Positions 22,692 through 39,672 of a DNA stretch of 64,000 nt are shown here, in pieces. Under the pieces are notes generated by a model. The model saw only the letters and a list, made by a program, of their open reading frames with translations. It had not been told where the DNA came from and did not search any database. The translations under genes were made by a program, and so were the position numbers. The DNA is from Candidatus Eremiobacteraceae bacterium (lineage in GTDB: Bacteria; Vulcanimicrobiota; Vulcanimicrobiia; Eremiobacterales; Eremiobacteraceae), in contig DATFYX010000072.1 of NCBI GenBank assembly GCA_035314825.1, forward strand, positions 1-64,000. The letters are read 5' to 3'. Position 1 is the first letter of the stretch. Every line of letters begins with the position of its first letter.

Positions 22692-23486
22692 ATGCACATA
22701 CGATTCGTTTCGGCGATCGCGTTCGCGATCGTCGCCGCACTAGCGCTCGCGCCGCAAGCGCTGGCGACCGACATCAACGACATCGGCTTCGTCGACCAAG
22801 GCGCGATCGGGGGCCTGCCCGCGTTCGCCGCGGTGCAGCAGCAATTCGCGCAGTATCGCGATCAGACCGCGCGCGATTTCCAAGCGGCGATCAAAGGCAA
22901 GAGCCAAGCGGACCAGCAGCGCATCTACGGCGAGTTCAACCAGAGGCTCGCCGCCAAGCAGCACGAGTTGTTCGACCCGCTGCTCAGCCGCGCCCAGACG
23001 GCGATCGCCTTGGTGGCCGCGCAGCACAGCCTGAGCGTCGTCGTCGACAAGCAGATCGTCATCTACGGCGGCCTGGACATCACAAAGGAAGTGGTATCCA
23101 CCATCGGCCAGCCCGGCATCATCGTGCCGCCGGTGCAGACGCCGCCGCCGTCCGAGGTGGGCTATGTCGATCAGGCCCAGATCGACCAACTGCCCAAGGC
23201 CAAGGCCGCCGCGGATGCGTTTCAGGCGGCGCGCCAACGGCTCGGGCAGGATCTCAACAAGCAGCTCGCGGGCAAGAGCCAAGCCGAGCAGCTGACGATT
23301 GTGCAGTCGTTCAACCAGCAGCTCAAAGACGAGCAGAAGAAAGACATCCAACCGCTCAACGACGAGATCCAAAAAGCGATCTCGGATGTCGCCAAGAAAC
23401 AGAAGCTGCTGCTCGTCGTCGACCAGGCCGATCGCGTCTACGGCGGAACCGACGTCACCGCCGACGTGCTGGCAGCACTGAAGTAA
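22692..23486 (+). CDS. OmpH/Skp-like periplasmic chaperone with duplicated module
   Basis: The 264-aa protein has a cleavable signal (about 1-25, ending ALA). It consists of two copies of the same OmpH-like unit, at about 31-138 and 156-264. Each starts like GFVDQGAI or GYVDQAQI followed by LPxxxAA, has a helical arm rich in Gln/Ala/Lys with a shared KSQAxQ motif, and ends in VVxDxxxxxYGGxDIT. A Pro-rich linker separates them. Skp holds unfolded barrel proteins; normally one unit per chain forms a trimer. The gene starts 15 nt after bamA with an AGGAGAA ribosome-binding site, so the products are made together. Confidence 0.85.
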   Translation: MHIRFVSAIAFAIVAALALAPQALATDINDIGFVDQGAIGGLPAFAAVQQQFAQYRDQTARDFQAAIKGKSQADQQRIYGEFNQRLAAKQHELFDPLLSRAQTAIALVAAQHSLSVVVDKQIVIYGGLDITKEVVSTIGQPGIIVPPVQTPPPSEVGYVDQAQIDQLPKAKAAADAFQAARQRLGQDLNKQLAGKSQAEQLTIVQSFNQQLKDEQKKDIQPLNDEIQKAISDVAKKQKLLLVVDQADRVYGGTDVTADVLAALK

Positions 23487-24857
23487 TTGAAGCACCACAA
23501 GGCACTCGTCGCCGCGGCGCTCGTCGTCGCGCTGGCGGGGTGCGCGAAGGGAGGCGCTCCGTTCTCACATGGCAGCGGCGCCGGCTACGTCGACATCGAC
23601 AAGGTCATCGCCGCGCATCCGCTGCACGTGGAGCTCGACACGCTGGAATCGCAGATCACGTTGCTCAACGGTCAGGCGCAGAACGCGCCTGCGCCGCAGA
23701 CGGCGGCGCAGCAGCAGGCGCTGACGCAGATGGAAACCGACCTGGCCGCGGCGGACGCGCAGTTCCAAGCGCAGATCAACGCGCGGCGCGCCTATTACCA
23801 GCAGCGCGAAGCGGCGGCTATGGCGGCGTTGCAAACCCAGGTCACCGGCGCATCCGCTCCGATCGGCCAGCAGCTCGGCGCCCAAGCGCAGAAGGTCCAA
23901 CAAGATGCGCTCAAGGCATTCACCGACTACCAGAAGCAGCTCTATCAGGCGGATGGCCAGCATCTGCAGCAAGTGGCCAGGCAGCTCCAGCAAGAGGTGG
24001 GTCTGAAGATCGGTGCGCGGCGCGCGCAGCTCGAGAAGCAGGAGACCGATTACCAGATCGACCTGGCGAAACAGAGCCAAAGCCAGCGTCTCAACCTCAA
24101 AGCCAAGCTCGAAGACCTCAATCTCAGCCAAGACGAGCGCCAGCAGGCGGAGAGCCAGCTCGCGAACATCGAGACGCGCGAAGAGTCGATGATCAACCAG
24201 CTCAAGTCGCGCGACAACGCGGACCTCAAGACCTACGAGGACTCCTTGCAGCGCGACGCGGCCGCGCGTTTCAACGCGGCGCGCACGGCGTCGATGAACG
24301 CGACCAACGACAAGCTCAAGGCCCGGCAGAAGCAGATGAACGACCAGCTGCACGTGCAGCTCTCGGGCCTGGGCACGCAATACCAGCAGCAGGTCGCCAA
24401 CGCCAACGCGCAGCTCGAGAAAGATCCAAAGGCGCGCGCGCAGATGGACAAGATCCACAGCGAGAACCAAGCGCAGTACGCCGCCGAATTCTCCAAGGCG
24501 CTGGCCGCCTATCAGCAGACGCGCAAGCAGCTCGTCGCCAAGTACAGCGCGATCGGGCACATGCAGTTCATCGACGACGTCGCGATCCAGAACGAGTCGC
24601 AAGATCTCGCCGCCCAGCGGCGCGACCTCTACGGCAAGATCCTGACGCAGGTCCAGACCCAGGTCGGTGACGTCGCGCGCCAGCGAGGCATCGCCATCGT
24701 GTTCACCAACATCCGCGGAGCCGGCTCGGCAGTCGACATCACCGATCAAGTCATCAAAGCCATCGCCGCGCTGCCGGCGTCGCCGTCGCCTTCAGACTCG
24801 TCACCCGCGACCTCATCTCCACCGTCACCACCCACGCCATCCGGGAGCAAAACGTGA
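23487..24857 (+). CDS. Large OmpH-like coiled-coil lipoprotein
   Basis: The 456-aa product starts with TTG directly after the previous stop. Residues 1-18 are a signal with lipobox Cys19 (ALAGC), so the mature protein is lipid-anchored. It begins GYVDIDKVIAAHPL like OmpH. The middle, about 45-380, is almost all helical and charged with heptad character (Gln/Ala/Lys/Asp), a long coiled coil. The end, GIAIVFTNIRGAGSAVDITDQVIKA, matches the module ends of its neighbours with YGG altered. The Pro/Ser tail is disordered. It is probably a chaperone or spacer in the periplasm; the specific role is unknown. Confidence 0.78.
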   Translation: MKHHKALVAAALVVALAGCAKGGAPFSHGSGAGYVDIDKVIAAHPLHVELDTLESQITLLNGQAQNAPAPQTAAQQQALTQMETDLAAADAQFQAQINARRAYYQQREAAAMAALQTQVTGASAPIGQQLGAQAQKVQQDALKAFTDYQKQLYQADGQHLQQVARQLQQEVGLKIGARRAQLEKQETDYQIDLAKQSQSQRLNLKAKLEDLNLSQDERQQAESQLANIETREESMINQLKSRDNADLKTYEDSLQRDAAARFNAARTASMNATNDKLKARQKQMNDQLHVQLSGLGTQYQQQVANANAQLEKDPKARAQMDKIHSENQAQYAAEFSKALAAYQQTRKQLVAKYSAIGHMQFIDDVAIQNESQDLAAQRRDLYGKILTQVQTQVGDVARQRGIAIVFTNIRGAGSAVDITDQVIKAIAALPASPSPSDSSPATSSPPSPPTPSGSKT

Positions 24858-25273
24858 AACAGACACACTCACATCGAGCGCTTGCGGCCGTCGCGCTGGC
24901 CGCGGCCGTCGCGGCCGGCGGCTGCGCGCAGGCGCACTCGCGCATCGCCGTCGTGCGCGTGACCGAACTGGAAGCCAACTGGCCGAAGTTCCAGAACTAC
25001 TACAACCAGCTGCAAGCGAACTACCAAGCGATTTCGCAGAGCAAAGTGAGCCCGGCCGAGAAGCGCAAGGCGCTGGCCCAGTTCCAAGACCAGGAGAAAC
25101 GTTGGAACGACGAGGTCACGACCGAGGTGCGCGCCGCCGTCACCGACATCGCCAAGCAGCGCAACTACCAGGTCGTGGTGACCAAAGAGGGCACGGCGTA
25201 CGGCGGCGACGATATCACCCCTGACGTCGAAAAGGCGCTGAACATCACGCCGCCCTCGCCGACGCCCAAATAG
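24854..25273 (+). CDS. Small OmpH-like lipoprotein
   Basis: The 139-aa product starts with GTG 24854, overlapping the previous stop by 4 nt. A signal ends in lipobox Cys24 (AAGGC). The body is one OmpH-like unit: IAVVRVTELEANWPKF, a helical arm with AEKRKALAQFQDQEKRW, then YQVVVTKEGTAYGGDDITPDV. It is the third consecutive OmpH-like gene, followed 10 nt later by lpxD. In many diderms a single skp gene sits between bamA and lpxD; here that slot is tripled. Confidence 0.82.
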   Translation: MKQTHSHRALAAVALAAAVAAGGCAQAHSRIAVVRVTELEANWPKFQNYYNQLQANYQAISQSKVSPAEKRKALAQFQDQEKRWNDEVTTEVRAAVTDIAKQRNYQVVVTKEGTAYGGDDITPDVEKALNITPPSPTPK

Positions 25274-25283
25274 AGCGCGCGCC

Positions 25284-26324
25284 GTGACCGCGCCGCGCCC
25301 CTTGAGCGACTTGGCGGCGATTGCCGGCGCAACGCTGGTGGGCGACGCGCGCGTCTCCATCGAGCGCGTGTCGTCGGTGGACGAGGCCGCGCCGGGCGCG
25401 CTCACCTTCGCCGTCGACGAGCGTTGGATCGAGCGTGCGCTCGCCTCGCGCGCATCAGCCGTTATCGTGCCGCGCGCGGCCGCCGATCTCCCACGCGGCG
25501 AGAAGTCGCTGCTGGTCGCCGACGACGTGCGCGCCGCGCTTGCCGCCATTCTCGCCTCGTTCGCACCGCCGCTGCCACGCGGCCCGTTCACGCATCCGAG
25601 CGCGGTGATCGACGACCGCGTGAAGCGCGGCGCCGACGTGTTCATCGGCGCGGGCGTCGTCGTCGGCTCGGGCGCGCACCTAGGCGACGGCGCGATCCTC
25701 ATGGCCGGCGCATACGTCGGGCGCAACGCATCGATCGGCAAGCGCACGCTGCTGCATCCGCGCGCCTGCGTGCTCGACGATTGCGTGGTCGGCGACGATT
25801 GCATCCTGCACGCCAACTGCGTCATCGGCGCCGACGGCTTCGGCTTCGTGCGCGTCGGCGCGGAGCAGATCAAGATACCGCAGATCGGCAACGTCGTCGT
25901 CGGCGATCGGGTGGAGATCGGCGCATGCAGCGCGATCGATCGCGCCGTCACCGGCTCGACCACCATCGGCGCCGGCACCAAGATCGACAATCTCGTGCAG
26001 ATCGGGCACAATTGCACGATCGGTCCCGACAGCACGCTGTGCGCGCAAGTGGGCATCGCCGGCTCGACGGACGTCGGCGCATTGGTCACGCTCGCCGGAC
26101 AGGTCGGGGTGAACGGTCACATCACCATCGGCGACATGACGATCGCCGGCGGACAGACCGGCATCACGTCGGACCTGCCGCCGAAATCCAAAGTGTGGGG
26201 AACGCCTGCGCTGCCGATCCGCGAGGAGATGGCGCAGAAGGTCATGTTCAGAAAACTGCCTAAACTATTCGAACAAGTGCGCGAACTCATAGACGCAGTG
26301 GCGGAACTGCGCAAACGCCGGTAG
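25284..26324 (+). CDS. lpxD: UDP-3-O-(3-hydroxyacyl)glucosamine N-acyltransferase LpxD
   Basis: LpxD adds the second hydroxyacyl chain in lipid A synthesis. The 346-aa product has the N-terminal uridine-binding domain (PRPLSDLAAIAGATLVGD; LTFAVDER) and a left-handed beta-helix of hexapeptide repeats from about residue 105. The segment GADGFGFVRVG, and QIGHNCTIG with the catalytic His, are conserved LpxD features. The C-terminal helix KLFEQVRELIDAVAELRKRR is typical. It starts with GTG 25284 and is followed 15 nt later by lpxC. Confidence 0.96.
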   Translation: MTAPRPLSDLAAIAGATLVGDARVSIERVSSVDEAAPGALTFAVDERWIERALASRASAVIVPRAAADLPRGEKSLLVADDVRAALAAILASFAPPLPRGPFTHPSAVIDDRVKRGADVFIGAGVVVGSGAHLGDGAILMAGAYVGRNASIGKRTLLHPRACVLDDCVVGDDCILHANCVIGADGFGFVRVGAEQIKIPQIGNVVVGDRVEIGACSAIDRAVTGSTTIGAGTKIDNLVQIGHNCTIGPDSTLCAQVGIAGSTDVGALVTLAGQVGVNGHITIGDMTIAGGQTGITSDLPPKSKVWGTPALPIREEMAQKVMFRKLPKLFEQVRELIDAVAELRKRR

Positions 26325-26339
26325 CGCCGACGTGCCGCC

Positions 26340-27173
26340 GTGAACTTCGATAAGCAGCATACGCTGGCGCGCGACTTCACGCTGCGCGGCGTCGGCTTGC
26401 ACACCGGCCACGCCGGGGCGGTGACAGTAGCCCCGGCACCGGCGAACGCCGGTTTTTCATTTGTCCTTGCCGGCGGCCAGCGCGTCGCGGCCACTCCTGA
26501 CAATGTCCGCTCGACGGTGCGCTGCACCACGCTGGGCTCGGGCTCGGGCGTCGTGCACACGGTCGAGCACGTCCTCGCCGCGCTCGCAGGGATGGCGGTC
26601 GACAACGCCACCCTCGCGATGGAGGGCGACGAGGTGCCGATCCTCGACGGCAGCGCGCTGCCTTTCGCGCGCGCGATCGCCGACGCCGGCATCGTCGAAC
26701 AACCGGCTGCGCGGCGCGTGCTCGAGCTGCGCGAACCGGCGTGGTTCGAAGAGGACGGCAAACTGCTGGCCGTGCTGCCGGCCGACGCGTTCTCGATCAG
26801 CTTCTTCGTCGCGTTTCCCGAACCGGTCGGCCAGCAGTTCTTGGCCACGCCCGAGATCACGCCCGACTACTTCCTGCGCGAGATCGCACCGAACCGCACC
26901 TTCGGGTTCCGGCACGAGATCGAGGCGCTCGCCGCGCAGGGCCTCGCGCTCGGCGGTTCGCTCGACAACGCGGTCGTCGTCGACACCGACGGCTACATGG
27001 GCGAACTGCGCTTTCCCGACGAGATCGTGCGTCACAAGGCGCTGGACCTGATCGGCGACTTCGCATTGCTGGGCATGTACCCGCGCGTGCGCGTCGTCGC
27101 GATCAAGTCCGGCCACGCCTTGCACGTCGCCGCCGCGCGCGCGCTGCGCGCGCTGCTGGCGCCGGCGGGCTGA
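26340..27173 (+). CDS. lpxC: UDP-3-O-acyl-N-acetylglucosamine deacetylase LpxC
   Basis: LpxC is the zinc deacetylase that commits precursors to lipid A. The 277-aa product starts with GTG and reads KQHTLARDFTLRGVGLHTG. The zinc site is visible in HTVEHVLAALAGM, in RHKALDLIGDFALLG (His, Lys, Asp as in characterised LpxC) and in the C-terminal SGHALHVAAAR. EGDEVPILDGSALPF is also conserved. It stands alone rather than fused to FabZ as in Bacteroidota. It is slightly shorter than E. coli LpxC (305 aa), mainly at the C-terminus. Confidence 0.96.
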   Translation: MNFDKQHTLARDFTLRGVGLHTGHAGAVTVAPAPANAGFSFVLAGGQRVAATPDNVRSTVRCTTLGSGSGVVHTVEHVLAALAGMAVDNATLAMEGDEVPILDGSALPFARAIADAGIVEQPAARRVLELREPAWFEEDGKLLAVLPADAFSISFFVAFPEPVGQQFLATPEITPDYFLREIAPNRTFGFRHEIEALAAQGLALGGSLDNAVVVDTDGYMGELRFPDEIVRHKALDLIGDFALLGMYPRVRVVAIKSGHALHVAAARALRALLAPAG

Positions 27174-27184
27174 CGGGCGGCGCT

Positions 27185-27658
27185 GTGGCTGACATCGACA
27201 TCCGCCGCATCATGGAGACGCTGCCGCATCGCTACCCGATGCTGCTGCTCGATCGCATCACCGAGCTCGAGCCGCTCAAGCGCGCCGCGGGTTACAAGAA
27301 CGTGACGATCAACGAGCCGTTCTTCCAAGGCCATTTCCCGAACAACCCGGTGATGCCGGGCGTCCTCATCATCGAGGCGATGGCGCAGCTGGGCGGCACC
27401 GTCATCCTCGAGCCCAAAGCCGCGACGACCTCCGTGCCGTATCTCGCGGGCGTCGACAAGGTCCGCTTCCGGCGGCCCGTGCTGCCGGGCGATCGCCTCA
27501 TGATGGACGTGCGCGTCGAATGGCTGCGCAAGTCGTACGGCTGCTTGCAGGCCGAGTCGCAAGTAGACGGCCAGGTCGTGTGCACCGCGCAGCTGATGTT
27601 CTCGGTCGTCGCCGACACGCGTCTGTTCCAGCTCGACGCCGCTATCCTCGACATGTGA
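27185..27658 (+). CDS. fabZ: 3-hydroxyacyl-ACP dehydratase FabZ
   Basis: FabZ dehydrates hydroxyacyl-ACPs in fatty-acid elongation and so competes with the lpx enzymes for hydroxyacyl-ACP. The 157-aa hot-dog protein begins (GTG) MADIDIRRIMETLPHRYPML, with the catalytic His in LPHRYPMLLLDR and the catalytic Glu in PVMPGVLIIEAMAQLGG. KVRFRRPVLPGD is a family motif. The GTG at 27185, 11 nt after lpxC, is chosen; the frame stays open far upstream but that part is lpxC shadow. Its stop overlaps the lpxA start. Confidence 0.95.
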   Translation: MADIDIRRIMETLPHRYPMLLLDRITELEPLKRAAGYKNVTINEPFFQGHFPNNPVMPGVLIIEAMAQLGGTVILEPKAATTSVPYLAGVDKVRFRRPVLPGDRLMMDVRVEWLRKSYGCLQAESQVDGQVVCTAQLMFSVVADTRLFQLDAAILDM

Positions 27659-28530
27659 GCGCGGTGATCAGACCAGGCGGCGACGGCCCCAGCGTCCACA
27701 CGCTGAACATCCACCCGACCGCGGTCGTGCATCCCGGCGCGCGCATCGGGCGTGACGTCGAGATCGGGCCGTATTGCATCATCGGCAAGAACGTCGAGAT
27801 CGGCGACGGCAGCAAGCTGCTGGCCAACGTCGTCGTCCACGGCCATACGCACCTCGGGTCGGAGAACGTGGTCTATCCGTTCGCGGTGATCGGCGGCACG
27901 TCACAGGACAAGAAGTTCCGCGGCGAGGTCTCGTACGTGCGCATCGGCGACCGCAACCAGATCCGCGAGTACGTGACGGTCAACCGCGGCACGGACGCTG
28001 GCTCGTCGACCACGATCGGATCGGACTGCCACTTGCTCGCCTACGTGCATATCGCGCACGACTGCCACGTCGGCGATCGCGTCGTGATGTCGAATCTGAC
28101 GCAGTTGGCGGGCCATTGCATCGTCGGCGACGGGGCGAACATCTCGGGCATGGTGGGCGTGCATCAATTCGTGCGCATCGGACGGCTGGCGTTCATCGGC
28201 GGCCGCAGCAAGATCCTCAAGGATTGCCCGCCCTTCATGCTGGTCGAAGGCAACCCGGCGTGGGTGCGCGGCCTCAACCGCGTCGGCCTTAAGCGGCAAG
28301 GCGTTTCCAACGCGGCGCAGACCGAGCTCAAAGAGGCATATCGGGCGCTCTACCTGGGCGACGGCACGCTCTCAGGCGCGGTCGAGCAATTGCGCGATCG
28401 CGTGACGACGGACGAAGGCAAGGAGCTGGTGGCGTTCTTCCTGGACGAGTCGCAGCGCGGCTTCACCACGCGAGAGATACGCCGCGGCCGCGCCGTCGCG
28501 CCGACGGAAGACGAAGCCGGATTCGACTGA
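27655..28530 (+). CDS. lpxA: UDP-N-acetylglucosamine O-acyltransferase LpxA
   Basis: LpxA performs the first acylation of lipid A synthesis. The 291-aa product has an N-terminal extension of about 15 aa, then the beta-helix starting NIHPTAVVHPGARIGRDVEI, with YVHIAHDCHVGD (catalytic His), NLTQLAGHCIVGD and GMVGVHQFVRIG, and a helical C-terminal domain (LNRVGLKRQGVS). The GTG at 27655 overlaps the fabZ stop as GTGA; a second GTG at 27664 is possible. Length is a little above the usual 262 aa, owing to extra residues at both ends. Confidence 0.95.
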   Translation: MSAVIRPGGDGPSVHTLNIHPTAVVHPGARIGRDVEIGPYCIIGKNVEIGDGSKLLANVVVHGHTHLGSENVVYPFAVIGGTSQDKKFRGEVSYVRIGDRNQIREYVTVNRGTDAGSSTTIGSDCHLLAYVHIAHDCHVGDRVVMSNLTQLAGHCIVGDGANISGMVGVHQFVRIGRLAFIGGRSKILKDCPPFMLVEGNPAWVRGLNRVGLKRQGVSNAAQTELKEAYRALYLGDGTLSGAVEQLRDRVTTDEGKELVAFFLDESQRGFTTREIRRGRAVAPTEDEAGFD

Positions 28531-28546: not shown

Positions 28547-29719
28547 GTGACGTCCGACATCTTCATGAGCGCGGGCGAGGCCTCGGGCGATCTCGAGGCC
28601 GCTCTGCTGCTCGACCAGATCCGCGCGCTGCGCCCCGGCACCACGTGCGCTGCCATCGGATCGGAGCGCCTGCGGGCCGCAGGTGCGCGCATCACCGTCG
28701 ACTCGTGCGATTGGGCCAGCATCGGTCCGGTGTCGGCGTTCGCGAAGATCCCGAGGTTGTACGTCATCATGCGCCAGCACGACGCGATGCTGCGCCGCGA
28801 ACCGCCGCGGGCCGTCATCCCTGTCGACTTCGGCGCGTTCAACCTGCGGTTGGTCGAACAGATGCGCCACGGCGGCTATCGCGGCCCCATCATCTACTAT
28901 TTCCCGCCGGGTGCGTGGCTCGATGACGAACGCCAAGCGCGCGCAGTGGCAGCGGGGGCGATCCCGTTGACGGCACTCGCGCGCCAGCGCGATTTCTATC
29001 ACCGGCTCGGTCTGCGCTGCGAGTACTTCGGACATCCGCTGGTATCGGCGATCGCGCCGCGCGCCGCGCAGGATGCGCAGTGGCCGGCGCAGCTCGCCGT
29101 GCCTGCCGGCGCCGGACCGCGCATCGTCGTCTTCCCCGGGAGCCGCGCCGAGGAGATCGCGCTCATGACCGACCGGCTGTCGGCAGCGGCGGCTATGCTG
29201 GCGAGCGCCGACGAGGCGACGTTCGTCGTCGCCGCCGCCTCGCAGGTGCGTGCCCGGCAGATCGAGCGGCAATGGCCGCGCGCCTCGAGCGGCATGCGAC
29301 CGGTCATCGCCGGCGGTGAAGATATCCAACTCGCGCTGCGGGCGGCCGACCTCGCGTGGGTCGCGTCGGGCACCGCGGTGCTCGAGACCGCCTTGCGTGA
29401 GATCCCTCAGGTCGCGTTCTACGCCATCAGCCGCACGCAGTACCGCATCGCGCAGCGGCGCGTGCCGCAATTCGTAAGCGGCCCGCTGACTTTGCCGAAT
29501 CTCCTCTTGGGGCGCACGATCGTGCCCGAGCTGCTGCAGGACGATCTGACGCCGCAGGCGCTGGTCGACGCGACGCGGCGCTTGCTGTCGGACGCCGGTG
29601 CGCGCGACGAGCAGCTGCAGGGCTATCGCGAACTGCGCGCCGCGCTCGGTCCGCCTGATACGCTCACGCGGATCGCGCGCTTCGTCGTCGAGACCATGGA
29701 CGCGGGCGCGCCGACATGA
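28547..29719 (+). CDS. lpxB: Lipid-A-disaccharide synthase LpxB
   Basis: LpxB joins lipid X to UDP-diacylglucosamine to make the lipid A disaccharide. The 390-aa GT19 product has the N-terminal FMSAGEASGDLEAALL, the YYFPPGAWLDDERQ segment, YFGHPLVSAI, the nucleotide-binding VVFPGSRAEEIAL, and the donor-site WVASGTAVLETAL. It starts with GTG 28547. The 3' end overlaps the phosphoesterase gene by 4 nt. All catalytic landmarks are present, so it should be active; compare the divergent relative at 30450. Confidence 0.93.
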   Translation: MTSDIFMSAGEASGDLEAALLLDQIRALRPGTTCAAIGSERLRAAGARITVDSCDWASIGPVSAFAKIPRLYVIMRQHDAMLRREPPRAVIPVDFGAFNLRLVEQMRHGGYRGPIIYYFPPGAWLDDERQARAVAAGAIPLTALARQRDFYHRLGLRCEYFGHPLVSAIAPRAAQDAQWPAQLAVPAGAGPRIVVFPGSRAEEIALMTDRLSAAAAMLASADEATFVVAAASQVRARQIERQWPRASSGMRPVIAGGEDIQLALRAADLAWVASGTAVLETALREIPQVAFYAISRTQYRIAQRRVPQFVSGPLTLPNLLLGRTIVPELLQDDLTPQALVDATRRLLSDAGARDEQLQGYRELRAALGPPDTLTRIARFVVETMDAGAPT

Positions 29720-30453
29720 GCGCCGCCTCGCTCACGATCTACCATACGGCAGACGTGCACGGCCGCACCGGATTCGGCGCTCCGCTCGCCGCGCTGGTGG
29801 AACCGTCGGCCCTGCTGGTCGATTGCGGTGACAGCCTGCTCGGATCGTCGACGATCTATCGGCGCGACGAGCCGGTCATCGCCGATTTCGCCGCGGCACC
29901 GTATCGCGCGCAGGCGGTCGGCAACCGCGAATTCCATTACGTCCATGCCTGGTTCGCCGCGCGCGCACGCGCGATGCCGATGCCGATGATCTGTTCGAAT
30001 CTGCTCGACCTGCGCGAGCGACCGGCTCCGTTCCGGCGCTCGCTCGTCGTCGAAGCGGGCGGCGCGCGCGTGCGCCTGCTCGCTTTGCTCGCGCCCCAAT
30101 ATCGCACCGGCAGCGGCTGGGAGGCCGTGTTCGGGTGGCGCTTCCTCTCCGTGCAGGCCGCCATGGACGAGATGTTCGCGGCACCGCAGGAGGCCGACGT
30201 CACCATCGTGCTTTCGCATCTCGGCCTGCGGTCGGATCGCGAGCTTGCGAGCGCCTACGCAGGCATCGGGGCGATCATCGGCGGCCATAGCCATGACACG
30301 CTCGCGCAGCCGGAGATCGTGAACGGCGTGCCGATCGTGCACGCGGGAGCGTATGCGGAAAACGCAGGCCGGCTCGAGCTTACGCTCGGCGGCGCGCGGC
30401 CGCGGGTGGCCTCGTTCCGGCTGGTGCCGCTCCTGTCTCGGACGGGCGGATGA
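29716..30453 (+). CDS. UshA-like metallophosphoesterase, candidate UDP-2,3-diacylglucosamine hydrolase
   Basis: This 245-aa calcineurin-like phosphoesterase resembles the N-terminal catalytic domain of UshA/5'-nucleotidases but lacks the C-terminal nucleotide-specificity domain and any signal peptide, so it is cytoplasmic. Metal ligands are visible: D13 and H15 (TADVHG), D39 (VDCGDS), N70 (GNRE, 69-72), H168 (LSHLG), H191 and H193 (GGHSH). Position 71 is Arg where UshA-like enzymes have the GNHE His; LpxH enzymes share this His-to-Arg change (GNRD). It lies inside the lpx operon between lpxB and an lpxB-like gene, overlapping both by 4 nt, and no lpxH, lpxI or lpxG is visible. I infer, without proof, that it hydrolyses UDP-diacylglucosamine to lipid X. 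Confidence 0.78.
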   Translation: MSAASLTIYHTADVHGRTGFGAPLAALVEPSALLVDCGDSLLGSSTIYRRDEPVIADFAAAPYRAQAVGNREFHYVHAWFAARARAMPMPMICSNLLDLRERPAPFRRSLVVEAGGARVRLLALLAPQYRTGSGWEAVFGWRFLSVQAAMDEMFAAPQEADVTIVLSHLGLRSDRELASAYAGIGAIIGGHSHDTLAQPEIVNGVPIVHAGAYAENAGRLELTLGGARPRVASFRLVPLLSRTGG

Positions 30454-31643
30454 GCGTGAGCGCGCCCAACGTCTTGCTCGTCAGCAACGGCTACGGCGAG
30501 ATGGCCATCGCCGGCTATCTCGCGTCGGCGATCGCGGCGCGCGCGCCCGAGGCCATCATCGAGCATTTTCCGATGGTCGGCGGTGCGGCCGCAGCGGACG
30601 CGGATGCCGCGCCGGCTCGCGTCGTCGGACCGGCTGCGCGCATGCCGAGCGGCGGTTTGATCGCGTACTGGAACGTCCGCAACCTCGTGCGCGACGTCGG
30701 CGCAGGCCTGCTCTCGCTCACTGCGCGGCAGTTCTCCTTTCTACGCCGCCAAGGTTCGCGCGATGCGATCGTCGCCGTCGGCGACGTCTATTGCGCAGCG
30801 GCTTGTCTGGTCTTCGCACGACGTCCGACCGTGTTCGTCGCGACCGCAAAGTCGGAATACGTCGCTTCGCACTCGGGCCTCGAACGCGCCGTCGCGCGGC
30901 GCGCCCGCATCGTGTTCGCCCGCGACGCCGCTACAGCGGTCGCGCTTGCCGCGGACGGCGTGCCCGCTCGCTATGCCGGCAATCTCATGATGGACGGCGT
31001 GCGGGTCACGGGCGTCGATCTGCGCGAGCCGCCGAACTCCGTCAACGTCGCGGTGCTGCCTGGCAGCCGCGATGATGCGCCCGCCAATGCGGCCGCGGCC
31101 ATTCGCCGCCTCGTCCTCGTCGCGCACGCGCTCGCGCCGGCATCGGTCCACGCGTTCATCTCGCTCGCGCCCGGCATGGACCGGGCCCCGCTGTTGGCCG
31201 CCTGCGCGGGGGCAGGCGCGGTCTTGACGCCCACGGGCGCGCAGTCGGGGGTTATCGCGAGCGGTGCGGCCGGTCCGCTCACCATCGGCGTCATCTCCGG
31301 CGCATTCGGCGACATGCTGTCGCGCAGCGTCATGGCGCTAGGTCAAGCCGGCACAGCGAACGAGCAAGCGGCCGGGCTCGGACTGCCGGTGATCGCGTCC
31401 TCGCCCGGCGGCGATCCGGCCAGAGTGGGCTGGTATCGGATGCGCCAGCAGCGGCTGCTCGGCGACGCGCTCTTGGTCTTGCCTGATGAGGACCACGCAT
31501 TCGCGCGTGGCGTCGTGAGCTTGCTGGGCGACACTTCGAGGATGCGCGCGATGGGCGAGACGGGACGAGCCCGCATGGGCGGTCCCGGCGGAGCCGACGC
31601 CGTTGCACAGGCTGTGCTGGCGCTCGCGTCGCACCACCCGTAG
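30450..31643 (+). CDS. Lipid-A-disaccharide synthase-related protein
   Basis: The 397-aa product resembles LpxB-related proteins known from Cyanobacteria and Deinococcus (the TIGR03492-type family). It has a GT-B layout: VLLVSNGYGEMAIAGYLASAI at the start, VGDVYCAAACLVF, VAVLPGSRDDAP as the nucleotide-binding turn, and a C-terminal AGTANEQAAGLGLPVIASSPGG donor-site region. It lacks the LpxB GEASGD and SGTAxLE motifs, so it is unlikely to be a second true LpxB. It follows the phosphoesterase with a 4-nt overlap and abuts the ligase-LptC gene. A glycolipid sugar-transfer role is plausible but unknown. Confidence 0.78.
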   Translation: MSVSAPNVLLVSNGYGEMAIAGYLASAIAARAPEAIIEHFPMVGGAAAADADAAPARVVGPAARMPSGGLIAYWNVRNLVRDVGAGLLSLTARQFSFLRRQGSRDAIVAVGDVYCAAACLVFARRPTVFVATAKSEYVASHSGLERAVARRARIVFARDAATAVALAADGVPARYAGNLMMDGVRVTGVDLREPPNSVNVAVLPGSRDDAPANAAAAIRRLVLVAHALAPASVHAFISLAPGMDRAPLLAACAGAGAVLTPTGAQSGVIASGAAGPLTIGVISGAFGDMLSRSVMALGQAGTANEQAAGLGLPVIASSPGGDPARVGWYRMRQQRLLGDALLVLPDEDHAFARGVVSLLGDTSRMRAMGETGRARMGGPGGADAVAQAVLALASHHP

Positions 31644-33491
31644 ATGACGGCACCCATGACGCGCGGACAGCGCGCCGAACTCGCGCTCCCATTCGCGCTC
31701 TTCGTGCTGATGCCGGCCTTGCCGATGCTCGTGCTGCTCGCCGACGTGCTGCCGCGCGGCGTCGCGATCGGCGGCAAAGGCTACGCGGTCGCGCTGCTGG
31801 TCATCGTCGCCATCGCCGCGCTGGTCACGTTGGTCGCGCTGGTCGTGCGCCGCGGCTGGCGCGGTCTCATCCAGCCTCCGCTCACCGCGCCGCTGCTGGC
31901 GATGATCGCGACCGCGACGCTGGCAGGTGCGGTCGGCGTGTCGCTGCGGGCAAGCATGTTCGAGATCATCTGCGAGGCAGGCAACTTCATCGCGTTCGTG
32001 GCGATCGTGTGGAATGCGGCTGACGAACGCGTCCGTCGCGCGCTGCTCACCTGCTACTTCGCGACCGGCATCGCGGCGACCGTGTTCGGCGTCAGCCTCA
32101 CCCTCACGCGCCATCCGCCCGAGATGTTCGCGTATCAGCACGGCCGCGCCGCCGGCACGTTCTTGCAGCCCAACGAATTCGGCGGCTATCTGCTGTTCTT
32201 CATCGCGCTCGGCCTCGCCCAAGCAGCGGCGCCGCCGCTGCTGCGCAGGCTCGGCGCCACGTCAGCCGTCGTCGGCATCATCGCGCTGGCCTTGTCGGTG
32301 TCGCGCGCGGCGTGGCTCGGTCTGCTCATCGGCCTGCCGGTGCTGATCTGGCGTTTCGGACGCACGGCCAAGGTCGCGTACGTCTGCGCCGCGGTCATCG
32401 CGCTGGTGCTCGGCACGACGACGTTCCGCGACGTGGCGCACGATCCGAGCGAGAATCCTTCGCGCATCGCCGTCTGGCAGGGCGCGGCGCGGATGGCCGT
32501 GAGGTTCGCGCTCACCGGCGTCGGCCCGCTCGGCTTCTCGAAGGTGTACCCCGCGCTCAAGCAGCCCGATGCCGCCGTCGACGAGGTGCACGCGCACGAT
32601 CTGCCGCTCAACGTGCTCATCGAGAACGGCCTGCTCGGCCTGGCGGCGTTCGTCTGGGCGGTCGTCGCGGGCGTGCGCGAGGCGCGCCGCACGCTCCGGC
32701 GCATACCGCCCGACGACCGCGAACGGGTGCTGCTCTTCTACGCTTTGGTCGCCGCCTTCATCGCGTCGGCGCTGCAGAACGTCGTCGACGTGGTGTCGAC
32801 GTTCGTCTTCCTCTTGTGGTGGCCGATGCTCGGACTGATGATCGCGCTCGGCAGAGCGCCGCAGCCCGCGTCGGACACGCCGGCCGCCGAGCGCGTCATC
32901 GCCCGGCCGTCGAGCGCGCCCGTCCATGCCGCTCTCGCCGCACTCGTGCTCGCCGCCGCAGTGCTTATCTCGGGCTGCGCGTCGACACCGCGCGCCGCAT
33001 CGACGCCGACGCCCTCTCCGACTCCTGGCGCGCAGGCGCCCTATTACATCATCGCCTCGTCGCAAAACGGAAAGCCGGTCGAACTCAAAGAGATCCATAA
33101 CGGCCAGCTCGAGTATCTGCTGCGCGCTACGCAGATCGCATATGCGACGGTGGATTCCCAGGGTACGTTGAGCGACGTCGCGTTAAGCTTCTATAAAGGA
33201 AGGACGCTGCGCTTGAGGGTAACGGCCCCGACGGCAGCAGTGCGGCCGAACGACCGCAACGTTTCGCTGCGCGGCGGGGTGCGGGCCGCTGGCGCAAACG
33301 GCGCGTCCATGTCGGCCGACTCCATGGAATACGACGGCAACCGCCACATCCTGGTCGCGGAGGGCGCCGTCAAGGCGCATGACGACCGCGGCAACTCCAT
33401 CGCCGGCGACCGCGCCGAGGCCGACCTCGACCTGCAGCGCGTGCACGTCTGGGGGCCGGACGGCGAGCAGACCATGACCTTCGGGAAGTAG
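31644..33491 (+). CDS. O-antigen ligase-like membrane protein fused to LptC-like lipoprotein domain
   Basis: The 615-aa product has two parts. Residues 1-402 are an O-antigen ligase/polymerase (Wzy/WaaL) with about 11 membrane segments; GTFLQPNEFGGYL (172-184), SVSRAAWLGL and VHAHDLPLNVLIENGLLG (315-332) are the family landmarks. Residues about 427-445 form a further hydrophobic segment ending in a lipobox LISGC (Cys445), then a Pro/Thr linker and a beta-jellyroll of LptC/OstA type (about 467-615). lptB follows 3 nt later, supporting the LptC call. No good start codon lies before the lipobox except an ATG in the last membrane segment, so a true fusion is favoured. LptC passes LPS from LptBFG to LptA. 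Confidence 0.78.
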   Translation: MTAPMTRGQRAELALPFALFVLMPALPMLVLLADVLPRGVAIGGKGYAVALLVIVAIAALVTLVALVVRRGWRGLIQPPLTAPLLAMIATATLAGAVGVSLRASMFEIICEAGNFIAFVAIVWNAADERVRRALLTCYFATGIAATVFGVSLTLTRHPPEMFAYQHGRAAGTFLQPNEFGGYLLFFIALGLAQAAAPPLLRRLGATSAVVGIIALALSVSRAAWLGLLIGLPVLIWRFGRTAKVAYVCAAVIALVLGTTTFRDVAHDPSENPSRIAVWQGAARMAVRFALTGVGPLGFSKVYPALKQPDAAVDEVHAHDLPLNVLIENGLLGLAAFVWAVVAGVREARRTLRRIPPDDRERVLLFYALVAAFIASALQNVVDVVSTFVFLLWWPMLGLMIALGRAPQPASDTPAAERVIARPSSAPVHAALAALVLAAAVLISGCASTPRAASTPTPSPTPGAQAPYYIIASSQNGKPVELKEIHNGQLEYLLRATQIAYATVDSQGTLSDVALSFYKGRTLRLRVTAPTAAVRPNDRNVSLRGGVRAAGANGASMSADSMEYDGNRHILVAEGAVKAHDDRGNSIAGDRAEADLDLQRVHVWGPDGEQTMTFGK

Positions 33492-36692: not shown

Positions 36693-36981
36693 TTTTGGGG
36701 TTCCACCTTTCGGGAACGGCCCCGCCTCCCGGCCAGCGGCCAAGGGCAGGAATGGGCAATTTTAGCGGCCAACCCAGCCCGTGCAGGTTGCCGGTGCAGT
36801 GCTTCGCCTTTGTCCTCATGGGCGATACGGCGCCGAATATTTGTGCCGCTGGACGACATGGTCGCCCAGCGCCTTCGGGACCCATCGGAACTGGATTCGC
36901 AAAGCAGGGAACGAAGATTCTGCGCGCGTCAAGGTTCGAAACGGCCCCCGACGTCTGTGCCTCTCGCTAAGGAGGACCGCT
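36693..36981. other. Leader region before the SLH porin
   Basis: This 289-bp gap has no convincing gene. An imperfect hairpin, GGGGTTCC paired with GGAACGGCCCC, lies around 36702-36725 near the end of the LPS operon but has no T-run. The rest should contain the porin promoter and a 5' leader; no clear -35/-10 pair or known riboswitch motif could be assigned. An open frame in phase with the porin extends back to 36781 but lacks a signal peptide and is rejected. Confidence 0.5.
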
Positions 36982-36984
36982 TTG
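36968..36984 (+). promoter_or_regulatory. Strong Shine-Dalgarno deciding a TTG start
   Basis: TAAGGAGG at 36968-36975 lies 6 nt before TTG at 36982-36984. It is the strongest ribosome-binding site seen in the window and places the porin start exactly at the beginning of a signal peptide. Confidence 0.85.
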
Positions 36985-39672
36985 AAGAGATTCGCCTACC
37001 TCGCGGTAAGCGCGTTCGTCGCCGCTTCTGTTCTGTGCGTCCGGCCGGCGTTTGCGACGCCGTTCAACGACGTACCGGCGAACAGCTGGGCGGCGGACTA
37101 CATCCAGACGCTCGCTGCAGACGGCATTCTTGCCGGCTATCCGAACGGAAAATTCCTCGGCAACCGGCCGATGACGCGCAACGAGGTCGCGGTCGCTCTC
37201 GCGCGCGCCATCGCCAAAGTGGAAGCCGAAGGCGGCGCCAGCAAGGCCGACCTGCAAAAACTCGCCAGATTGATGGACGCATATAAGGACGAGCTCGACG
37301 GCATGGGCGTCCGCGTCACGCAGATCGAGGACAGGCTCGCGGCGCTCGACAAAGCGACGAAGTTCGCACAAGGCTTCACCGTGCACGGCACGCTGTGGTC
37401 CGGCTACTCGCAGCGCGAGCAGATCCAAAACCCGACCGTGCTCACCGGTGCGCCGTCATGCGCGACCACCAACCCGCTGCCGGCCAACGCCTGCTTGGCG
37501 CGCTCCGATTCGGTCTTCAACTTCACCGACCAATTCATCGAAAACGACCAGAGCAACGACCCGTACTACGGACGCGTCGGCCCCGGCATCCTGCTGCCGC
37601 GCGCGCAATGGGAGTTCACGCCCTCGTATGCGGTCAACCAGAACCTGATCATCTCGCTGCCCATCAACATCGTCGACTACTACTCGGGCGGCTACCGGCA
37701 ACAGCAGACCGGCGTCGGCATCAACCCGACGCTCGAGGTCAACGTGCCGAACATGAACGGCGTCACGGGTCTGAACATCCGCGTCGGGCAGTTGCAGAAC
37801 ATCAAAGGCTCGCTCACCGGCTTGACCTACAGCCCGGCCGACAATTTCCACATCAACTACACCGACCCGTTCCGTCCGTATCCCAACGGCGTTGACGTGA
37901 CGGCGACGATCGAGAAATACCTGGACGTACAGGCGTACGGCACGCGCTTGGACCCGGTCGGGGTGTTGAGCGGCGCGCCGACGTTCCCGCCGAACACGGG
38001 CTGGATCCAGTCGAACACGTATCTCGGCCCGTACTACTTCCAGCAGACGACCAACGTCTACGGCTCGGCGCCGACGACCGATACGTTCACCTCGGGCACC
38101 GGCACGCTGACGTCCGTCACGCTGAGCGCGCTCGCGCAGCCGGGCACGGTCTTCGTGTCGTACTACCTCGGCCCGCCAGCGTGCTTCACCGGCTGCTTCT
38201 TCACGGCTGCTAATCAGCCGAACGAGCCCAGCTTCAACTTCGTGCAGACCCCCAACATGGTCGTGTTCACGTCGCCGAGCCCCATCCCGGCCGGCGTGAC
38301 CGTCTCGATCACGTATCAATCGTACAGCGTGTCCAACAACACGTTCCCGCAGCGCTACGACGTCGGCGGCCGCGCGGTGTACCGCATCCCCGGCATCCCC
38401 AGCGCGCAGATCGGCTTCTCGTTGAACCGCCTGTTCGATCTCAACGGCGGCAACAGCGCGTCCGGCAACACGGTCTACCTGCAATCCGCGTCGGTGCCGA
38501 ACACCATCGTCAGCGACACGGTCTTCGGGTTCGACTTCGTGATGCCGCTGGCACGCGAGTGGGGCAGCGGCCAGTGGGGCGTCGTCACGCCGGCCTTGTA
38601 CGGCGAAGTCGCGACCAGCAAGTATACGCCTGACTTCCAGCGCATTCCGGCGCAAAGCGATACCGCAGGCGTCATCGGGCTGAAGTTCAAGTTCCTGGGC
38701 GGCGACCAGACGCTGTCGTATCAGAGCGTCGGCCCGTACTACATCGACGGCGCGTCCTTCATGTGGGCAGGCCAGTCGCCGGCGCTGTTCTCGTTCTGGA
38801 ACATGCCGCAGCTGCCGACCGGCTTCGGAATCGGCAACACGCTGGGTATCAACCAGCAAGTCGACGCCGTCGCTCTGGCCAACGGCTATGCGGGTCCGCT
38901 GCTGGCGAACACCGGGCAGTTCCCGGGCGGGACGTTTGACTTCCCGCTGTTCAACCAGTTCAAGGCGCAAGGCCCGTACTTCTACAGCACGTTCGCGCCG
39001 AACACGCGCGGACCGTCAGTGCAGCTCAACTTCCCGATCCGTATCGGCGGCGTGAATCTGAAGATCCGCCTCGGCGGCCAACAGCTGCAAGAGATCCGTC
39101 CGAACTCGCTGTCGGCGGCGATCTTCGGCCCGCAGTACGTCACCGGCGTCGGTGGCAAGTACCAGACCTACGGCGGCGGCTTCACGCTCGGCCTGCCGAT
39201 CTGGGATCGCACGGCGACGTTGAACTTCGATGCTCTGTACGAGCGCATCCAGCGGCTCGACCAGACGCCGTTCGTCTACGCCGCCGACCCGCTGCTCGGC
39301 GTGCCCGGCGCGTACAACGCGCTTGGCAGCACCGAGTTGACGGGCACCGGCCAGATCGTGTACTTCTATCCGAACTACCAGAACGTGCGCCACTTGGCGG
39401 GCAGCGGCTCGCTGGCGTTGCCCATCACGGCCGCCCTCACGGCGAACGTGACCTACGTCAACCAGGCGTGGGGCGGTGAGGCGCTCAACACGCTGAACCA
39501 GAGCATCAGCCAGACGAAGACTGCCCTCAACGCGGGCGTCCTCTACAACATACCGAACACCAACTCGTCGATCAACTTCTTCTTCACGAACTACCAATGG
39601 AAAGACAACCAGCTGCCGACCTACAACTGGACCCAGAATCGGCAGAACATCTACTTCACGGTCAAGTTCTAG
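36982..39672 (+). CDS. SLH-domain outer-membrane porin
   Basis: The 896-aa protein starts at TTG 36982 after a strong ribosome-binding site. A signal peptide (1-26, ending AFA) is followed by one S-layer homology domain (27-80; FNDVPANSWAADYIQTLAADGILAGYPNGKF), a coiled coil (about 88-128), and a large beta-barrel to the C-terminal Phe (YFTVKF). This is the layout of cyanobacterial and Deinococcus SLH porins and OmpM of Negativicutes: SLH grips peptidoglycan-linked polymer and the barrel sits in the outer membrane, tethering the two. It is probably a very abundant protein, given the strong leader and its own terminator. Pore selectivity is unknown. Confidence 0.9.
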   Translation: MKRFAYLAVSAFVAASVLCVRPAFATPFNDVPANSWAADYIQTLAADGILAGYPNGKFLGNRPMTRNEVAVALARAIAKVEAEGGASKADLQKLARLMDAYKDELDGMGVRVTQIEDRLAALDKATKFAQGFTVHGTLWSGYSQREQIQNPTVLTGAPSCATTNPLPANACLARSDSVFNFTDQFIENDQSNDPYYGRVGPGILLPRAQWEFTPSYAVNQNLIISLPINIVDYYSGGYRQQQTGVGINPTLEVNVPNMNGVTGLNIRVGQLQNIKGSLTGLTYSPADNFHINYTDPFRPYPNGVDVTATIEKYLDVQAYGTRLDPVGVLSGAPTFPPNTGWIQSNTYLGPYYFQQTTNVYGSAPTTDTFTSGTGTLTSVTLSALAQPGTVFVSYYLGPPACFTGCFFTAANQPNEPSFNFVQTPNMVVFTSPSPIPAGVTVSITYQSYSVSNNTFPQRYDVGGRAVYRIPGIPSAQIGFSLNRLFDLNGGNSASGNTVYLQSASVPNTIVSDTVFGFDFVMPLAREWGSGQWGVVTPALYGEVATSKYTPDFQRIPAQSDTAGVIGLKFKFLGGDQTLSYQSVGPYYIDGASFMWAGQSPALFSFWNMPQLPTGFGIGNTLGINQQVDAVALANGYAGPLLANTGQFPGGTFDFPLFNQFKAQGPYFYSTFAPNTRGPSVQLNFPIRIGGVNLKIRLGGQQLQEIRPNSLSAAIFGPQYVTGVGGKYQTYGGGFTLGLPIWDRTATLNFDALYERIQRLDQTPFVYAADPLLGVPGAYNALGSTELTGTGQIVYFYPNYQNVRHLAGSGSLALPITAALTANVTYVNQAWGGEALNTLNQSISQTKTALNAGVLYNIPNTNSSINFFFTNYQWKDNQLPTYNWTQNRQNIYFTVKF

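Follow-up and report, generated by a model that had tools for sequence, protein, structure and literature searches.

Background

Lipid A is the anchor of the outer membrane, and lipid X is formed during its synthesis by hydrolysis of UDP-2,3-diacylglucosamine. According to a 2025 review, the known enzymes for this step are LpxH, LpxI and LpxG only (PMC12444477). LpxH is a calcineurin-like enzyme with the motif GNRD and a helical insertion, the acyl cap, between its H114 and GHxH motifs. Arg80 of PaLpxH binds the beta-phosphate, and this arginine was described as unique to LpxH among the metallophosphoesterases (PMC5016852). LpxI, which is encoded in lpx operons, attacks the beta-phosphate (PMC6286764). 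LpxG of Chlamydia is another calcineurin-like enzyme with this activity that is not LpxH; it has an N-terminal membrane helix and the motif GNHD, and its described orthologues come from Chlamydiaceae (PMC4807358).

In this study, we analyzed a window of 64,000 nucleotides (the whole stretch of contig DATFYX010000072.1 from position 1 to 64,000) of a Candidatus Eremiobacteraceae bacterium, which belongs to the phylum Eremiobacterota (WPS-2). We believe that one gene in this window probably codes for a UDP-2,3-diacylglucosamine hydrolase of a fourth, so far undescribed class, one that would act as LpxH does and would be derived from the UshA/5'-nucleotidase branch of the calcineurin-like phosphoesterases.

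Candidate gene and operon

The candidate gene is an open reading frame of 245 codons with an ATG start, and it was confirmed as real. The order of the operon is Omp85/BamA, three OmpH-like genes, lpxD, lpxC, fabZ, lpxA, lpxB, the candidate and an LpxB-related gene, with the following positions:

25284 to 26324, + strand: lpxD (PF04613 and hexapeptide repeats)
26340 to 27173, + strand: lpxC (PF03331, 295 bits)
26741 to 27658, + strand: fabZ, in the 3' half of the open reading frame (FabA-like domain PF07977, residues 161-283); the gene itself probably begins near 27180
27520 to 28530, + strand: lpxA (PF13720 and hexapeptide repeats); translation probably begins downstream of 27520
28547 to 29719, + strand: lpxB (PF02684, 181.6 bits; TIGR00215, 166.8 bits, below its cut-off of 190)
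29716 to 30453, + strand: candidate UDP-2,3-diacylglucosamine hydrolase, a standalone UshA-type metallophosphoesterase domain (245 aa)
30450 to 31643, + strand: LpxB-related gene (TIGR03492, 225.8 bits, above the cut-off of 219.2)

The candidate overlaps lpxB upstream and the LpxB-related gene downstream by 4 nt each, and these coordinates agree with the gene order given in the earlier note on this DNA. On the 3' side of the LpxB-related gene lie an O-antigen-ligase-like/LptC open reading frame, an lptB-like gene and lptF/G-like genes. These neighbors are the set expected of a lipid A/LPS export operon, and the position next to lpxB fits a hand-over of lipid X to LpxB.

Some other features of the region were recorded. 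At 31644-33491, a single open reading frame of 615 aa encodes both an O-antigen ligase-like domain (PF04932) and an LptC domain (PF06835), and these two parts are mostly separate open reading frames in related genomes. Three OmpH/Skp-like genes stand in a row at 22692-25273, the second of which is a weak match and unusually long (456 aa). A large open reading frame with an SLH domain at 36781-39672 resembles the SLH-domain porins, which link the outer membrane with the cell wall.

Search for a known hydrolase

No match to LpxH (NF003743, TIGR01854) or LpxI was found in the genome of the window (2.55 Mb, 97% complete), and 149 Eremiobacterota genomes were searched to rule out assembly gaps. LpxI (LpxI_C, PF06230) was found in 0/149 genomes and LpxH over the cut-off in 0/149, with one trivial match of 16 bits; Caulobacter and E. 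coli, used as positive controls in the LpxI and LpxH searches, were both detected. LpxB was present in 142 of the 149. An lpxH or lpxI gene hidden elsewhere in the genome, which the earlier note had named as the finding that would speak against its reading, was thus not found over the cut-off in this genome or in those of the phylum.

LpxG appears unlikely here, judged by its published description (the range of its orthologues) and by the kinds of the other metallophosphoesterases in the genome. The eight others detected resemble CpdA, a YfcE/MJ0936 type, SbcD, TIGR00282, two secreted acid-phosphatase-like proteins, one exported protein and one Ser/Thr-type protein. A hidden hydrolase was looked for among these eight, and all were of other kinds by appearance, several being judged by eye; the list missed the candidate itself, so it may miss other distant members. 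LpxJ, which the earlier note had counted among the hydrolases by mistake, is a late acyltransferase (PMC6286764) and was rejected as an alternative.

The first isolate of Eremiobacterota was described with an outer membrane covered by LPS (PMC9758169). In our search, LpxK passed the cut-off in only 1/149 genomes, as a weak match; its absence has also been reported for cyanobacteria. LpxK is the lipid A 4'-kinase. Because it is nearly absent from the phylum, the lipid A of Eremiobacterota probably lacks the usual 4'-phosphate; it differs from the E. coli type, and the later steps of its synthesis are uncertain, which counts against the hydrolase reading of the candidate.

Protein family and fold

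The candidate matched the Metallophos model PF00149 with 21.8 bits, just over the cut-off of 21.5, and matched the SoxB/UshA-type models far below their cut-offs (SoxB, 77.2 bits against a curated 550). Its nearest solved relatives are 5'-nucleotidases, by sequence too. The AlphaFold2 model, which was built on an alignment of 101 sequences, had a pLDDT of 97.0 and a pTM of 0.93 and contained the catalytic domain only. A Foldseek search of this model against the PDB returned nucleotidases, UshA and CD73 among them, at query TM scores of about 0.74-0.79. The protein therefore has the N-terminal metallophosphoesterase domain of the UshA/5'-nucleotidase family (which includes SoxB and CD73), and this domain of the family gave the best matches in both structure and sequence.

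The candidate differs from that family in several ways: it is a standalone protein of 245 aa without the C-terminal substrate-binding domain, it has no evident signal peptide, it carries Arg for the catalytic His and His or Asn for its Asp partner, and it lies in LPS gene clusters. The N-terminus reads MSAASLTIYHTADVH, and no N-terminal transmembrane helix of the LpxG type was found in it. The earlier note had called the protein cytoplasmic and UshA-like. The likeness to UshA is borne out by the structure and sequence matches; for the cytoplasmic location, the one indication is the lack of an evident signal peptide.

If only the closest folds and sequences, all 5'-nucleotidases, were considered, the candidate could be an ordinary nucleotidase or UDP-sugar hydrolase that chance or a role in nucleotide recycling brought into the operon. 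We regard this as very improbable, because the C-terminal domain is absent, no member has the catalytic His, and the gene is linked to LPS genes in two phyla.

With LpxH, the candidate shares the calcineurin-like fold class, the dinuclear metal ligands and a GNR[D/E] motif with Arg in place of His. It differs from LpxH in its UshA-type core, in having GNRE in nearly all members of the family instead of GNRD, and in lacking the helical insertion. The protein matched neither curated LpxH model, and direct homology to LpxH was rejected as undetectable: the E. coli protein gave an E value of 23 in BLASTP and a probability of 0.6% (E 0.096, not significant) in hhalign. Because this profile comparison was not significant, the functional likeness to LpxH, judged from the sequences, would be convergent or very ancient. 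LpxI, which carries out the step proposed for the candidate, has an unrelated fold, and the candidate gave no match to its domain PF06230; LpxG is set apart from the GNRE protein by its membrane helix and its GNHD motif.

No inserted cap domain is present in the AlphaFold2 model, and H168 and H191 are separated by only 22 residues. An LpxH-like acyl-binding cap, which the earlier note had proposed to look for, is therefore unsupported by this confident model of a catalytic domain only, and acyl-chain binding is left unexplained because the LpxH-type helical insertion is missing. As a guess, a conserved hydrophobic and aromatic stretch at residues of about 129-143 or the helix 77-86 could contact the acyl chains or the membrane.

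Active-site residues

The residues expected at the active site are encoded at these positions:

29752 to 29760, + strand: metal-site motif DVH (D13, H15), invariant in 101/101
29830 to 29832, + strand: D39 in the GD motif, a metal ligand expected to be the bridging one, invariant in 101/101
29920 to 29931, + strand: GNRE motif, residues 69-72, with N70 as metal ligand and R71 where nucleotidases have their catalytic His
29962 to 29964, + strand: R83, second family-specific basic position, R/K in 98/101 and mostly L/V in nucleotidases
30217 to 30219, + strand: H168, metal ligand, invariant
30286 to 30294, + strand: HSH of the GGHSH motif, with H191 and H193 as metal ligands, invariant

The translation of the open reading frame confirmed the GNRE motif at 69-72 that had been noticed earlier. 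D13, H15, D36, G38, D39, G69, N70, R71, N95, H168, G170, H191 and H193 were invariant in the 101 family sequences, so that all candidate metal ligands are conserved across the family and the metal site is intact. All 101 family members have Arg at position 71, where all 18 of the related two-domain nucleotidases compared have His, but the 101 sequences had been chosen for GNR[ED], and the fair test of the Arg is given by unfiltered counts. Among the standalone Armatimonadota proteins taken unfiltered from a profile search (n=70), 68 had GNRE and 2 had GNRD, and GNRE was kept in 68/68 Eremiobacterota sequences aligned without a motif filter, whereas the long nucleotidases from the same profile had GNH[ED] in 18/20. 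The two exceptions to GNH[ED], L279 and L285, whose open frames are intermediate, fall among the Arg proteins in the tree. At position 74, the family has mostly His or Asn (H74 in the candidate), and the 18 long nucleotidases have mostly Asp. In a quick tree, a branch with 99% SH-aLRT support split off the long His group. Two Armatimonadota members, L238 and L246, were seen to carry GNRD, exactly the motif of LpxH, instead of GNRE.

A His-Asp pair is typical of the phosphomonoesterases of this fold. This bears on the possibility that the candidate acts after LpxB as a lipid A 1-phosphatase, or as a phosphatase of another cytoplasmic LPS intermediate, in bacteria with a phosphate-poor lipid A. 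The near-absence of LpxK from the phylum, the position of the gene after lpxB, and the phosphate-free LPS made by cyanobacteria that have only lpxA, lpxC, lpxD and lpxB of the pathway (PMC3087551) are in favor of such a phosphatase. We nevertheless consider it quite unlikely, since the pair is replaced by Arg and His/Asn, the Arg matches an enzyme that cleaves a pyrophosphate (PMC5016852), and the lipid X step would stay unfilled.

Distribution and linkage in Eremiobacterota

A homologue of the candidate was found in 142/149 Eremiobacterota genomes and in 84 of the 85 of good quality, although, outside the class, a few weaker matches may represent other relatives of a nucleotidase-like kind. 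In the same class, the candidate was immediately downstream of lpxB in 107/107 genomes in which both genes were located. Over the phylum, it was on the same strand and downstream of lpxB within 4.5 kb in 132/133 genomes with both genes on one contig, and the order lpxD-lpxC-fabZ-lpxA-lpxB-candidate was found across the phylum. The conservation of the gene and of its GNRE motif and the linkage to lpxB are far beyond chance.

In deeper families, lpxB and the candidate are separated by one to several genes, and the most constant neighbor is the LpxB-related gene, which is kept as the downstream partner in most of the phylum. This pair stays together even when it is inverted relative to lpxB (L096 and L097). 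The intervening genes in deeper families include a small unassigned gene, a gene for a PEMT-type methyltransferase and a divergent second LpxB-like gene. In L086, the intervening genes are at the following positions:

L086:3842-5080
L086:3265-3849
L086:2768-3343

In three genomes of one family, LpxB was also seen within an open reading frame of 805-816 aa, about twice the usual length; in that of L097, the one scanned, Pfam recognizes the first half only. These frames are:

L096:4622-7045
L097:4521-6971
L098:5529-7946

The tighter link of the deep lineages to the LpxB-related gene than to lpxB counts against the hydrolase reading. It suggests that the candidate could work together with the LpxB-related protein (TIGR03492) in some other glycolipid step, where it would hydrolyze another nucleotide-sugar or trim the product of that glycosyltransferase, while another protein makes lipid X. 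The evidence for such a partnership is this linkage, the tightest found in the deep lineages, together with its persistence in inverted loci. It is set against the Armatimonadota loci described below, and two phyla would then have no enzyme for the essential lipid X step; we therefore think it unlikely.

Armatimonadota and other lineages

Armatimonadota relatives were reached by a scan of named genomes. The profile matched in 136 of 151 Armatimonadota genomes, some of the matches being long nucleotidases. LpxI was found in 0/151 genomes and LpxH over the cut-off in 0/151, with 15 weak matches. In several loci, the relative of the candidate directly follows kdsD and kdsC, which are Kdo-synthesis genes, and a KdsC signature was present in 26 of the examined loci. 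The loci in which the relative follows kdsD-kdsC yielded no LpxB-related gene. The relatives in this phylum are not beside lpxB, which also counts against the hydrolase reading. LpxC was present in 46/46 tested genomes outside Eremiobacterota that have the gene, which is supportive rather than discriminating.

In a UBP13 lineage, a relative was clustered with an MsbA-like transporter and an LpxB-related gene. In a lineage labeled as Deltaproteobacteria or uncultured (L183:2558-8765, L181), LpxB and a divergent GNRE phosphoesterase on a long branch were observed about 4 kb apart.

Proposed function

In the mechanism that we infer for the hydrolase, D13, H15, D39, N70, H168, H191 and H193 would hold two metals, probably Mn2+, and a metal-bound hydroxide would attack the alpha-phosphate of UDP-2,3-diacylglucosamine. 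R71 would hold or neutralize the beta-phosphate in the manner of Arg80 of LpxH. UMP and lipid X would be formed, as in the reaction of LpxH, and the neighboring LpxB would join lipid X to a second UDP-2,3-diacylglucosamine. The match of the Arg to LpxH is the strongest mechanistic clue but is not proof, because LpxG performs the reaction with GNHD (PMC4807358) and the Arg is thus not required for it.

The earlier note had read the gene as an undescribed enzyme of the lipid X step with Arg in the His position as in LpxH. Our results support this reading: LpxI is absent, LpxH is absent over the cut-off, and the Arg is found throughout the family. The nucleotidase, the phosphatase and the partner of the LpxB-related protein are all ranked lower, because lipid X formation would then be without a candidate enzyme in two phyla. 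We consider it rather likely that the hydrolase, a convergent fourth class of the UshA type with a His-to-Arg change, no C-terminal domain and no LpxH-type cap, is the standard lipid X-forming enzyme of Eremiobacterota and Armatimonadota.

Significance

No earlier description of the family was found in a literature search of open-licence papers, preprints being outside its scope. Three classes of this enzyme are known, and the family is a candidate for a fourth; if this is true, a change to Arg would have occurred twice at this catalytic position. In 2010, only lpxA, lpxC, lpxD and lpxB were reported for cyanobacteria and Dictyoglomi (PMC3087551), and how lipid X is formed in bacteria with these four genes but no hydrolase is a gap in knowledge. 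The candidate family, if the reading is true, would fill this gap for two other phyla, and it offers a single gene to test for the step. Eremiobacterota and Armatimonadota are large, little-studied groups that appear to make lipid A without the known enzymes of the fourth step, and the finding guards against taking the absence of LpxH and LpxI as the absence of lipid A in genome surveys.
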